Assembly (NCBI RefSeq): GCF_014202505.1
Contig: NZ_JACHGW010000003.1
Location: 62,001 to 126,000 of the forward strand
Length of the DNA stretch: 64,000 nt
Reading direction: 5' to 3'
Origin: Armatimonas rosea
GTDB lineage: Bacteria; Armatimonadota; Armatimonadia; Armatimonadales; Armatimonadaceae
The notes under the pieces are model-generated. The model was not told where the DNA came from. It searched no databases and was given only the letters and a program-made list of their open reading frames with translations. Each line of letters begins with the position of its first letter. Positions within the stretch are counted from its first letter, which is position 1. Both the position numbers and the translations under genes were made by a program. Shown here piece after piece: positions 25,566 to 30,081 of the stretch.

Positions 25566-26042
25566 ATGAAGCGTCGCTTTTTGCTCGGAGTGGTCGCCCT
25601 CCCGCTGATCTTTATTGGGGGCTCGCTGGTTTTCTTCACCATCAAGAATGGCAAGACCCCTTTTGAGACCGCCCGCGCCGCCCAGTTTGCCGCCGCAGGA
25701 ATGCTCTCCGAGAGCGAGGTCGCGGCGCGGCTGGCGAAAGACCCCGGCGATCCCATCGCCCACTACAACCTCGCCGAGAAAGCCAGCCAGCGCAAGGACT
25801 TTACTAAGGCAATTGAGGAGCGCAAGCTCGCCCTGCTCCGCGAGCCCGAGAACCCTCAGCTTCTCCTCGACACCGCATTGGATCTACGGTTTGCTCAGCG
25901 CAACGACGAAGCCCGGGTCTATGCGGAGCGCGTGATCGCCACCAAAGACCCCAACCTCACCCCCAATGCGCAGAAGCTCTTGGAGAAACTCAACACGCTC
26001 CGCAAGGACTCAGACCAAGCCAAAACGCTCCGGCTCCAATAG
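25566..26042 (+). CDS. Membrane-anchored TPR protein
   Basis: The 158-residue product has an N-terminal membrane helix or uncleaved signal (residues 5-25, LLGVVALPLIFIGGSLVFF) and about two tetratricopeptide repeats (DPIAHYNLAEKASQRKDFTK and the following segment). The soluble part should face the periplasm. TPRs suggest a protein-protein adaptor; the partner is unknown. It is divergent from the glycan cluster, and its 3' end overlaps the convergent gene by 33 bases. Confidence 0.7.
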   Translation: MKRRFLLGVVALPLIFIGGSLVFFTIKNGKTPFETARAAQFAAAGMLSESEVAARLAKDPGDPIAHYNLAEKASQRKDFTKAIEERKLALLREPENPQLLLDTALDLRFAQRNDEARVYAERVIATKDPNLTPNAQKLLEKLNTLRKDSDQAKTLRLQ

Positions 26043-27200
26043 CCGATTCGCGTTCTCTCTCCGCCCCCCAAACTTCACCACCGGGAAACGCTCAGGGCGC
26101 AGAGCGTGGAGGGCGCGGGCAGTAAGCTGGAGGGCTGAACTGATACGCTCCTCGTTTTTGCTTTCTTCATAGAGGCGTTTGAGTAGTGAGTAAAGTCTTT
26201 CGATGGTGGTCTCATCAATGTTTTGCTGTTGCTCTGGATAGCCTTCGTGACCGAAGAACTCCATCATGAGATATTCAGCAAGGTCTTGCTCAGAAGAGGG
26301 TTCTGGTGTGTACAAGATAGTGAGGTGTCGCTCTGCTTGTGACACAAGTCGCTCGGCTAGCGAACTCGCTACGGGGCCATTCCAATCGGGGTGCAACCCG
26401 ATAAACCCTGCTGCCTGTGCTTGCTCCCACTCAGTGGTTGTTTCTTTGCCCTGCATCCAGCCTCGTAGCCCACGCAGAGCCTCAAACCACCACTGAGCCT
26501 GCTCTTCCACGGGACGTGTACGGAGCGCAGTACGAAATGCAGCCTCACCCTCAATCTGTTCGTAGGTCTTGCCAAGCATGAACTCTTCCATACCTTTGGA
26601 GAGTCTGTCGGGATTGTTATCCCTTGTGGCAGGCAAGGCGATTGTCTCGTTGACATCATTACTAAAGCTGATTCCGACAGGGACAGGCTGTCCAAAAAGG
26701 TTTTCCAGTATGCCGTCGCTATGCAGCCGCCGGATGAGTGTCCCACAGATTTCTAGAAAGCTGGTAAGCTCTGGATTTCCCATCTGTGCCCCTGCATCTG
26801 AGATTGGTACATAATCGGGTTGCGCACGTCGCCAGACGAAGAACTGCTCACGGAGTTGGAGTCCGTCGGGATCGCCATCGTGGAACCCATCCTCGTCATA
26901 ATAGTGCTCCCGTTCATTCAAGGGGGGCCAAGGATCGGCACACAGTTCAAGGGAGGCACTTACTGTGTAGTCTGCGACACCAGGCGCATAGGGAAAGCCA
27001 AAATAAGACTCTATGCGCTCAGGAGTCGCGACGGAGTGCCGAAGCGGCATCAGGTGAGACAACGAAGGTTTTGCTGGATCGTCTTCATAGAGAGCAAGGA
27101 TGATCCAGATTCCGTAGATGTCGTCAAAGCCTTTCCAGGTCTGGAGGGCCTCGACGAGGCGCGGGTAGAGGTAGGCGAGGAGGGCGTCTTCGGGAGTCAT
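26010..27200 (-). CDS. Unknown 396-residue protein coupled to a VapC-like gene
   Basis: This soluble, acidic protein has no recognised domain. The N-terminal half is rich in aromatic residues (FGFPYAPGVADY; EHYYDEDGFHDGDPDG), and the C-terminal half is helical with many Glu and Arg. Its ATG overlaps the stop of the PIN-domain gene by ATGA, so it is made from the same messenger as that toxin-like protein. G+C is slightly lower than the neighbours. It may be a third member of a toxin-antitoxin operon or an unrelated passenger. Confidence 0.65.
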   Translation of the reverse strand: MTPEDALLAYLYPRLVEALQTWKGFDDIYGIWIILALYEDDPAKPSLSHLMPLRHSVATPERIESYFGFPYAPGVADYTVSASLELCADPWPPLNEREHYYDEDGFHDGDPDGLQLREQFFVWRRAQPDYVPISDAGAQMGNPELTSFLEICGTLIRRLHSDGILENLFGQPVPVGISFSNDVNETIALPATRDNNPDRLSKGMEEFMLGKTYEQIEGEAAFRTALRTRPVEEQAQWWFEALRGLRGWMQGKETTTEWEQAQAAGFIGLHPDWNGPVASSLAERLVSQAERHLTILYTPEPSSEQDLAEYLMMEFFGHEGYPEQQQNIDETTIERLYSLLKRLYEESKNEERISSALQLTARALHALRPERFPVVKFGGRRENANRLLEPERFGLV

Positions 27201-27640
27201 GGGGTGCTTATGGGAAGAGAAGGATCAATCCAGATGCGCTGGAGAAACTTGCCGTCGAGGTGGTTGAAGTCTTTATCGGTGGTGAGGAGGACGGCCCCGG
27301 TGACGTGTGCGGTGGCGGCGATCCAGACATCGTTCTTGCCCAGCTCGAAGCCTTGTGCCACGCTGTAGGCATCTATCTCGGCGTAGGCTTCCAGTATCTG
27401 AGGTTCCTCAATCGGGATGCGGCGGAAAGTGCCCAGGAGATAAGAAAGCTGCGTGCGCTTGGCCGGCCCCCAGCCAAACTGGATCGCGAGGGAGCGTAGC
27501 TCAGCCTCGGTGACGTAGCTGATGAGCGGCACTTCCGGTGTGAGGTAGAGCTGGTAGGACTGCTCAATCTGCTGCTGGAGTGCGCCCCCTCGGACATAGT
27601 GGACAAGGATGTTGGTGTCCAGCAGGTAGAGCGCAGCCAT
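27197..27640 (-). CDS. vapC: PIN-domain ribonuclease, VapC-like toxin
   Basis: The 147-residue product starts ALYLLDTNILVHYVRGG, with the first PIN aspartate in LDTN, a Glu in VTEAELR, and later acidic residues in GKNDVWIAATAH and TTDKDFNHL. These four acidic positions bind the metal of PIN nucleases; VapC toxins typically cut tRNA or rRNA. Its ATG directly abuts the TGA of the gene upstream (TGAATG), the usual antitoxin-toxin coupling. Confidence 0.85.
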   Translation of the reverse strand: MAALYLLDTNILVHYVRGGALQQQIEQSYQLYLTPEVPLISYVTEAELRSLAIQFGWGPAKRTQLSYLLGTFRRIPIEEPQILEAYAEIDAYSVAQGFELGKNDVWIAATAHVTGAVLLTTDKDFNHLDGKFLQRIWIDPSLPISTP

Positions 27641-27955
27641 TCAGGAGAGACGCTCCAGAGCCTGGGAGATTTCCTCGTCGGTTTCGTCACCTGGCCACCG
27701 CCCCACAGCGGCTTCTACCCCGTCTGCGTTTTCCGGTTTGATCGTCTCAAGCCAGCTAGGGGGTGAGGCAGGCGGGTTGTAGACAGGTGTATTCTCAATC
27801 CAGACGGTATGGGGAGCAAGTCGTTTTTGGGGGAGCTGGAGCGCCGTGGCGAAACGCTCACTGGCGTAGTCATCGGCTGCACGACCGGCGGCCTTCGCCT
27901 CGGTCTCAAGCTGGCGAATGATCTCTTCCGAAACCGTCAAAGTAAGCGTTGGCAC
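27641..27955 (-). CDS. vapB: VapB-like antitoxin
   Basis: The 104-residue product has a short beta strand then helices (MPTLTLTVSEEIIRQLETEAKAAG), like ribbon-helix-helix DNA-binding antitoxins, and a Pro/Trp-rich C-terminal half (WIENTPVYNPPASPPSW) that would wrap the toxin. It precedes vapC without a gap. The GTG start has a GAGGAG site about ten bases upstream. Antitoxins of this kind repress their own promoter together with the toxin. Confidence 0.7.
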   Translation of the reverse strand: MPTLTLTVSEEIIRQLETEAKAAGRAADDYASERFATALQLPQKRLAPHTVWIENTPVYNPPASPPSWLETIKPENADGVEAAVGRWPGDETDEEISQALERLS

Positions 27956-27977
27956 AGTCGTTTGCTCCTCAGGAAAG

Positions 27978-27983
27978 ATTATA
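27978..27983 (-). promoter_or_regulatory. -10 box of the vapBC-like operon
   Basis: TATAAT on the minus strand, 22 bases before the GTG at 27955. The leader contains the ribosome-binding site. The rest of the gap up to 28098 shows nothing recognisable. Confidence 0.55.
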
Positions 27984-28098
27984 CCGTGGCTGTTTTAATT
28001 GTGCTGTCCAAACACCAGGGGGCCATTTTCGTAAAAGTGTTGCTGGTGTGGCTTAGATGCAGTGTGGGTAGAGGTAGGCGAGGACGGATTCGCACGTG

Positions 28099-28271
28099 CT
28101 GATCGCGCTCCCGCACGTGCTGATCTACTAGCCGCGCTGTCTGATGTGCTATCCGCAGACGCTGATCTTGAGTTTCCATAGTCTGATTCACGTTTCACAT
28201 ACGCTGATATGCTTTATCCACCGTCTGATTTTCCTGTGGTACGCTCTGATCTTCCTCCGACACGCGCTGAT
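28099..28271. repeat. Nine CTGAT cores spaced exactly 21 bp
   Basis: The pentamer CTGAT occurs at 28099, 28120, 28141, 28162, 28183, 28204, 28225, 28246 and 28267, every step being 21 bases. The 16 bases between cores vary, and the base before each core is always G or T. On the minus strand the core reads ATCAG, and one frame gives heptads of (Asn/Asp/His/Tyr)-Gln-x-(Val/Met/Leu/Ala); that frame has a TGA at 28195-28197. The plus-strand frame gives (Ala/Ser)-Asp heptads with a TAG at 28178-28180. The array fills the gap between the Uma2 stop and the vapBC promoter. Confidence 0.85.
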
Positions 28272-28883
28272 TTACCCCGCACGCGGGTCAGGGGGCTCGG
28301 GGGCGGGGACGCGGCGGTAGAGGGCGGCGACGGAGAGGGTGATGCCGAGGCAGTGGAGCGGGAAGTGGTCGTCTTTGCGGGAGAAGCTGCGGTAGGTCCA
28401 GTCGGTCTCGGGGTTGGGGCGCTCAAAGACCTCGACGAGTATCTGATCTTGTGCGATGAGAATATAGGCGCGGAGGGAGGCAAGCTGCTGGTAGTGAAGC
28501 CATTTTTCGACGCGATCTTTATGTTCTGTAGAGTCTGAGAGTACCTCGACAACCACCAAGGGGTTGCGGAGGCTCCCATCGTCGTCGAAGTGCGCGTCCT
28601 CGCATACCACGCTGGCGTCGGGGTAGAAAATGCGGCCTGCGTCAAACACTCGGACTTTCTGATCTGAGTTATAAGACTGGCACTCGGTTTCTAGAAGCTG
28701 GCGGCCCGTCTCAATAAGAAAGTTACTGGCGAGGGTATTGTGGGCGGGCGAGGCACCCGCCATGGCGACGATGCGATCTCCGAAGAACTCACTTTTGTGC
28801 TCTGCGTCTTTCTCACGGGCGAGGTACTCTTCGAGGGTCGCGGGCTCAGCGGCTGGCTCGGGGAGCTTGAGGGCGTAGGACAT
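28272..28883 (-). CDS. Uma2-family (DUF820) putative endonuclease
   Basis: The 203-residue product has the family's PD-(D/E)xK-like core: IFYPDASVVCEDA, NPLVVVEVLSDSTEHKDRV (catalytic Glu-x-Leu) and KWLHYQQLASLRAYILI. Uma2 proteins are abundant in cyanobacteria, Planctomycetota and similar genomes and are thought to be restriction-like nucleases, but their role is not established. The ATG has GATAAT eight bases upstream. The C-terminus is a Pro-rich tail that ends exactly where the 21-bp array begins. Confidence 0.88.
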   Translation of the reverse strand: MSYALKLPEPAAEPATLEEYLAREKDAEHKSEFFGDRIVAMAGASPAHNTLASNFLIETGRQLLETECQSYNSDQKVRVFDAGRIFYPDASVVCEDAHFDDDGSLRNPLVVVEVLSDSTEHKDRVEKWLHYQQLASLRAYILIAQDQILVEVFERPNPETDWTYRSFSRKDDHFPLHCLGITLSVAALYRRVPAPEPPDPRAG

Positions 28884-28891
28884 GGCGCTTT

Positions 28892-28897
28892 ATTATC
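28892..28897 (-). promoter_or_regulatory. Leaderless-type -10 box of the Uma2 gene
   Basis: GATAAT on the minus strand, eight bases before the ATG at 28883; it overlaps the end of the upstream thioredoxin-fold gene. Confidence 0.5.
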
Positions 28898-29378
28898 CGC
28901 CAGGTTTGCTTGCCTTGTCCAGAAACTCGCGGAGGCTCTTCTCGCCGCTCTCGGTGCGGGGGCCTTCGGTCTGCCAGAGAATCTCGCCTTTGGGGGTGAC
29001 AAGGAAGGCGTAGATTTTCTTCTGGTCTTTGAGGCCAAGAGGCCGCATGAACGCGCCCTTGTCGGAGTAGATCGTGATGGTGGTCGCGCGGGTGGCAGGG
29101 TCGGGGATGCCGCGGCGCATGCCATTGTTGACAAAGCTGCGCATCATGCCGATCATTTTGCCGATCACGGGGAACTCGTAGGTGCGCAGGGTGGGGTGCT
29201 TCCGCATCAGCTCCTTGGCGAGGGGGACCCAGGTGTCGACCTCGCGCTGCTGGTTGCGCTGGAAGGCCACAAAGACCAGGTTGTGTGTCCCCGCAAAGTC
29301 CTGGGGGAAGCGCAGGGTCTTGCCCTCCAGGTTGTCGGCTTGGACCGTGGGGAAAGTCAGAGGTGTCGGGGTTTGCAT
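28893..29378 (-). CDS. Thioredoxin-fold protein without CxxC
   Basis: The 161-residue product resembles AhpC/TSA or Atp10-like proteins (THNLVFVAFQRNQQREVDTW, then ATTITIYSDKGAFMRPLGL and FLVTPKGEILWQTEG), but the redox cysteines are absent: there is no cysteine at the place of the peroxidatic or CxxC site. It is probably a structural or assembly factor, not a peroxidase. No signal peptide is seen. The ATG has GGGAGAG seven bases upstream and lies ten bases after the aat stop, so the two genes are likely cotranscribed. Confidence 0.65.
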   Translation of the reverse strand: MQTPTPLTFPTVQADNLEGKTLRFPQDFAGTHNLVFVAFQRNQQREVDTWVPLAKELMRKHPTLRTYEFPVIGKMIGMMRSFVNNGMRRGIPDPATRATTITIYSDKGAFMRPLGLKDQKKIYAFLVTPKGEILWQTEGPRTESGEKSLREFLDKASKPGG

Positions 29379-29388
29379 GGTGCTCTCC

Positions 29389-30081
29389 CTAACGCTCGAT
29401 GGGGGGCTTTGGTTCCTTATCAAAGAGCACCAGCGGCGCGGCTTGGGCGGCGGCGAGGCGTGCTAGGTAGTCATCGCGGGAGATCTCCTTAGCACCGAGC
29501 ATCTCAAAGTGAGGGGTCATGGTCTGGATATCGATCCAGGTGGCGCCGCGCTCCTTGAGGTACTCCACCAGAAACAAGACACAGAGCTTGGAGGCATCGC
29601 TGACCGTGTGGAACATGCTCTCGCCCGAGAAGACACCGCCCGCGGTCACGCCGTAGAGACCCGCCACCAAGTTTCCTTCGGTGTCCCAGGCCTCGACACT
29701 GTGGGCATCGCCGACCTCGTGTAGGGCCAGGAACGCGGCGACCATCTTGGGGGTGATCCAGGTTCCCTCCTGGCCGGGGCGGGGCGCGGTGCGGCAGGAG
29801 GCGATGATCGTCGCGAAGGCCGTGTCTACCGTGAAGTGCAGGGGGAGCTTCTTGCGGCGGCGGGCGAGGCGCTCAGGGATGTGGAGGTCGTCGAAGTCCA
29901 GGACCGCGCGGGGGTCGGGGTTGAACCAGAGCAGGGGCAGGCCCGTGTGCGGCCACGGAAAGATTCCTTGGCGGTAGGCGCACTGGAGGGTCGGCACATC
30001 GAGCGGTCCACCAATGCCGACAATTCCCTCGGCAGTGGCTTTCTCTGGTGGGCTAAACCCGAAACGACGGCGAAAGAGCAC
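29389..30081 (-). CDS. aat: Leucyl/phenylalanyl-tRNA-protein transferase
   Basis: The 230-residue product has the family signature set: YRQGIFPWPHTGLPLLWF and NPDPRAVLDF near the N-terminus, then VEAWDTEGNLVAGLYGV, FSGESMFHTVSDASK and WIDIQTMTPHFEMLGA. It attaches Leu or Phe to N-terminal Arg or Lys of proteins, marking them for ClpAP in the N-degron pathway. The GTG at 30081, seven bases from TACAAT, is preferred to a TTG six codons upstream that lies within the promoter. Confidence 0.95.
   Translation of the reverse strand: MLFRRRFGFSPPEKATAEGIVGIGGPLDVPTLQCAYRQGIFPWPHTGLPLLWFNPDPRAVLDFDDLHIPERLARRRKKLPLHFTVDTAFATIIASCRTAPRPGQEGTWITPKMVAAFLALHEVGDAHSVEAWDTEGNLVAGLYGVTAGGVFSGESMFHTVSDASKLCVLFLVEYLKERGATWIDIQTMTPHFEMLGAKEISRDDYLARLAAAQAAPLVLFDKEPKPPIER

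Follow-up and report, generated by a model that had tools for sequence, protein, structure and literature searches.

The DNA between a Uma2 family gene and a toxin-antitoxin pair of Armatimonas rosea, in a window of 64,000 nucleotides, carries a real array of 21-bp units; it belongs to a family of such arrays, has persisted at the orthologous place in a congener, combines a constrained core with the gain and loss of whole units, and lacks coding constraint in the window copy. It may well be a DNA-level element, one of a dispersed 21-bp array family in this genus, and this reading is better supported than that of a decayed coding repeat. The nine exact CTGAT cores and the exact 21-bp period of the original prediction were confirmed, with all nine start positions recovered (28099, 28120, 28141, 28162, 28183, 28204, 28225, 28246, and 28267; Table 1). 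The array contains seven overlapping exact core triples, compared to 0.00 expected from dinucleotide shuffles, which did not produce even one triple; elsewhere in the same genome, the only further exact triple lies within a near-perfect repeat on another contig. Outside the core, the pairwise identity of the window units is 0.39, and five contiguous columns are invariant where a uniform-divergence model predicts 0.9 (P ~0.0015). A structured RNA was rejected, with no Rfam match for the array up to E 1 and fold z values near 0 (-0.65 and +0.70), as was a phage origin, since blastn against phages gave no match.

Table 1. Features of the window and positions of related 21-bp arrays in the same genome.
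Feature	Position	Strand	Evidence or remark
PIN-domain toxin (VapC-like)	27197..27640	-	PF01850, E 2e-15
Antitoxin-like ORF beside PIN toxin	27641..27955	-	Without Pfam or NCBIfam match
Degenerate flanking unit GCGAGGACGGATTCGCACGTG	28078..28098	+	Without core; 3' part GCACGTG retained
Intergenic window array, nine CTGAT cores every 21 bp, unit CTGAT.T.C.t..c.CAc..g	28099..28271	+	Core and unit analysis
Uma2 family gene	28272..28883	-	Pfam PF05685, E 3e-26; missing at the corresponding place in congener G001
Redox-type gene	28893..29423	-	Weak ATP10 match, under Pfam cut-off; synteny anchor, directly before the array in the relative
Arrays at gene starts or immediately ahead of them	C3:362115, C2:535790, C2:1112012		
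Array without open frame	C2:768542		
Arrays in post-membrane linkers of anti-sigma-like proteins	C2:185407, C2:451763		Proteins assigned from gene order and blast similarity, not Pfam matches
Arrays in loops of M56/BlaR1-like proteins	C3:397217, C2:925926		Proteins assigned on the same basis

The stop codon of the Uma2 gene (TAA, minus strand, 28272-28274) directly abuts the array, and the position between this stop and the antitoxin-like gene would suit an operator of the neighboring VapBC or Uma2 genes. Such a role is very improbable; synteny shows that the congener G001 retains the array but lacks Uma2 there and has another toxin-antitoxin pair, and the window-type unit is also found at many unrelated genes. 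The connection to VapBC or Uma2 that had been considered is thus unsupported. As a separate observation, Uma2 and two unrelated toxin-antitoxin pairs lie beside the array in the two species (window 27197-28883 and L050:2833-3557); the edge of the array may be prone to insertions.

Among 101 genomes, only this congener has arrays comparable in number. Its orthologous array, on contig C128, lies in the corresponding neighborhood and shares 80% identity with the window array; the synteny anchors, at ~80-86% identity, are the redox-type gene on one side and a 396-aa gene (26010-27200) farther away on the other. When eight aligned units were compared with this one relative among the genomes, 1 of 40 core positions but 30 of 128 spacer positions had been substituted (Fisher P 0.002, with corrected pairing of the last two units), and the sole indel was one whole 21-bp unit, giving about 9 units in A. 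rosea and 10 in G001. The pN/pS ratios for the same pair, from an alignment that was shifted by one unit at its last two units, were 0.88 in the NQ frame, 0.89 in the KSD frame, and 1.24 in the AD frame. The core is therefore constrained while the candidate frames are unconstrained in the window copy; the purifying selection in one frame that characterizes a coding heptad repeat was not found within this range of 0.88-1.24, and the A. rosea copy contains stops.

These stops bear on a possible but doubtful origin from a heptad-encoding repeat, decayed or captured, that read NQxVxxx on the minus strand or, on the plus strand, ADLxxAL, and that is now a pseudogene piece. In the orthologous array of G001, which is spanned by a 71-codon open frame, the NQ frame on the minus strand and the AD frame on the plus strand are both open; in A. 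rosea both are broken, by a minus-strand TGA that had been placed correctly at 28195-28197, and by a plus-strand TAG that is real but sits at 28179-28181, one base off from the 28178-28180 first given. Window units also resemble the units of an intact gene (L051:2934-3596), and intact in-frame arrays occur in anti-sigma-like and M56 genes and in the N-terminal tails of a paralogue family. The intact coding versions that the original prediction named as evidence against a DNA element are thus present, as the G001 open frame and as paralogous arrays in frame inside real genes; they indicate that coding is possible where an array lands, yet the conservation is still not explained by coding. A coding origin also has to contend with pN/pS near 1 alongside a slowly changing core, with invariant rare wobble bases, with CTGAT units in differing frames and both orientations, and with the lack of any gene remnant beyond the array, since tblastn matched the array alone with E not below 0.028; on the same best E of 0.028, a remnant of the ~220-aa paralogue family described below was rejected as a candidate. 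The earlier remark on the would-be wobble position holds: T occurs there in every unit, although the genome uses T-ending codons sparingly (codon shares: GAT 40%, AAT 28%, CAT 22%, TAT 18%, GCT 7%, TCT 5%). Within the C2:185407 array, the Lys codon AAA is used 15:1, compared to 14:39 in the remainder of the gene, and the Ser codon TCA 6/8, compared to 1/46; that in-gene arrays are rich in codons avoided by the genome suggests that the arrays arose at the DNA level and that their translation is tolerated.

Across 2.05 Mb of the A. rosea genome, a composition-controlled scan that used a periodicity score with a local, codon-phase background identified 21 as the dominant period among degenerate arrays, with 12 peaks compared to none in codon-block shuffles; other tested periods below 42 returned zero to four arrays, and period 42, a multiple of 21, returned nine. 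Three of the 12 are ordinary coding coiled coils (C2:329094, C3:168825, C3:169228). The CTGAT(TTT) unit is common to four of the other nine (the window array, C2:185407, C2:451763, and C3:362115), and five carry other cores. Members of the CTGAT group match each other in register in columns outside the core as well; since a shared core is built into any search by the CTGAT pattern, full weight is given only to these four. About half of the arrays in this genus sit inside genes, where they are read in differing frames and in both orientations (KSDVAx, SSSDFxA). It counts against a DNA element that several arrays are in-frame coding sequence, and that repeats of seven residues are nothing unusual in proteins. 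Among further observations, 21-bp arrays of AT-rich, rare-codon sequence occupy the loop after an early membrane helix in M56/BlaR1-like proteins (L077:11020-14115, G000:C2:925704-926684); genes beside ECF sigma-like genes carry 21-bp arrays (KKSDVAx or Ser-rich) straight after a membrane helix (L056:4144-6546, L054:2044-2631, L055:4507-5133); and an array with an 18-bp period and the core CCCCAGATCG lies at G000:C3:152355-152480.

A second setting for such arrays is a family of ~220-aa helical paralogues, NCBIfam NF052641 'PQLLE', together with a sister group; among 291 genomes of the phylum, only two, both of this genus, pass the NF052641 cut-off. Eleven of 12 members tested have a 21-bp array at or beside the start codon (z at least 4.8, a level reached by 0.4% of random 350-bp windows); the exception, L462, has its array deeper within the gene. 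The leader-array cores are private to each locus; among the PQLLE or sister members at L451, L452, L453, L455, L456, L457, L459, L461, L463, L465, L466, and L474, nearly every one has such a private-core array at its gene start. Leader arrays are not simply coding, because stops lie upstream of several start codons. Searches for relatives of the family in plasmids and phages gave no match. Its predicted structure is a confident all-helical bundle (pLDDT 93); binding of these proteins to their own leader arrays was rejected as a candidate, since the best structural matches to the predicted model were generic helical bundles with Z of 8-10, values common for helical proteins, and DNA binding is thus without support from the model. 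One orthologous leader-array pair has ~3 units in A. rosea and ~6 in G001. Such differences in unit number between species, here and at the window array, together with private cores and the occurrence of arrays in linkers, leaders, and intergenic DNA, are compatible with a neutral minisatellite, in which local 21-bp slippage or unequal exchange acts, without function, where constraint is low and the core is a relic or pairing seed; this is unlikely, as uniform divergence fails to give five invariant columns or a 10-fold slower core, and as dozens of loci in Bacillales have one core in common.

Intergenic arrays with variable spacers were also found in Lysinibacillus, Neobacillus, Bacillus, Paenibacillus, and Sporolactobacillus when GTDB contigs were scanned with five cores; many perfect or coding repeats were returned as well. 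Eight Bacillales genomes have 6-108 triple-core matches each, compared to none for the reversed control. Nearly all of 21 Bacillales arrays placed against ORFs are intergenic, two of them between divergent genes, by a simple ORF calling that puts spurious ORFs over some arrays. The cores are spaced by 21 (114 cases), 20 (14), or 18 bp (3), and never by 19 or 22, which does not resemble a coding repeat. The units of four Bacillales groups consist of aaATTCGCTGATAAA followed by ~6 columns with almost no information, in other words a constrained half CG-CTGAT-AAA and about 6 free bases; the free columns of the Armatimonas units stand at the same register, a likeness to be read with the caveat that CTGAT was chosen by the search itself. 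Period 21 was again dominant in an unbiased scan of 400 kb of Bacillus sp. PAMC26568, which also yielded a second core family, TGGCCGAATT, whose arrays are dispersed in both orientations (for example, G105:C1:3084799 and G105:C1:3328698). In the Lysinibacillus arrays L106 and L151, two unit types alternate and produce a higher order period of 42 bp. Of the two readings originally offered, the DNA element with cores two helical turns apart on one face is favored, and the decayed coding repeat is less supported, given the constrained core, the unconstrained frames, the atypical codons, the varied frames and orientations, and the intergenic 20/21-bp arrays of Bacillales.

No description of such phased 21-bp arrays was found in the open-access literature, and known repeat classes share some of their properties. 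REP/BIME elements, the intergenic interspersed repeats of enterobacteria, are imperfect palindromes able to form a hairpin; like these, the Bacillales arrays are dispersed, multi-copy, and mostly intergenic, in either orientation and with few in divergent promoter regions, but the 21-bp arrays are non-palindromic, without hairpin, and built of strict head-to-tail units, one half of which is free. Direct repeats of ~20 bp phased on one helix face also make up iterons and the centromere-like arrays known from plasmid origins and from parC of par systems, whereas the 21-bp arrays are chromosomal, in many dispersed copies. No rep or par gene lies beside the window array; its neighbors are the Uma2 gene, the PIN toxin-antitoxin pair, and the redox-type gene. 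As in minisatellites (VNTRs), whole units are gained or lost between relatives (one extra in G001), but VNTR copies are near-identical as a rule, and the window units are 39% alike outside the invariant core. The cyanobacterial STRR, which are heptanucleotide repeats, are also short, tandem, and intergenic and contain CTGAT-like words, as in some matches of the GTDB contig scan, yet their period is 7 and every position is repeated. Heptad coding repeats share the 7-codon period, and some arrays of the family are in frame; the window copy differs in that both strands contain stops and coding constraint is absent. CRISPR arrays combine near-identical repeats of about 21 bp or more with unique spacers, whereas here only five columns per 21-bp unit are invariant.

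Each unit would consist of a constrained part (CTGAT, or ~14 bp in better-preserved arrays, for example CGACGT-CTGATTTT) alongside roughly 6-7 bases that are free. With two helical turns between them, the cores would present themselves on one face of the DNA, which could allow side-by-side binding by a putative protein of architectural or regulatory function, iteron- or BIME-like; the copies would expand and contract in whole units. Arrays are probably tolerated in protein linkers and N-terminal tails because 21 bp equal seven codons. The main difficulty for a single binding protein is that cores differ between loci; private cores favor more than one binding protein, or a mutational process that proceeds in steps of 21 bp. 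We suggest, tentatively, that helically phased 21-bp arrays, with one half of the unit constrained and centered on CTGAT and the other half free, form a class of chromosomal element not described so far. A putative protein dedicated to binding them would maintain these arrays in this genus and in Bacillales, which belong to unrelated phyla, and in linkers and N-terminal tails they could be domesticated as repeats of seven residues. Arrays bound in phase would represent a widespread chromosome-organizing or regulatory element, one that escapes repeat finders since conservation covers no more than a quarter to two thirds of each unit; since 21 bp are both two helical turns and seven codons, the in-frame arrays would show a route from DNA repeat to protein sequence.
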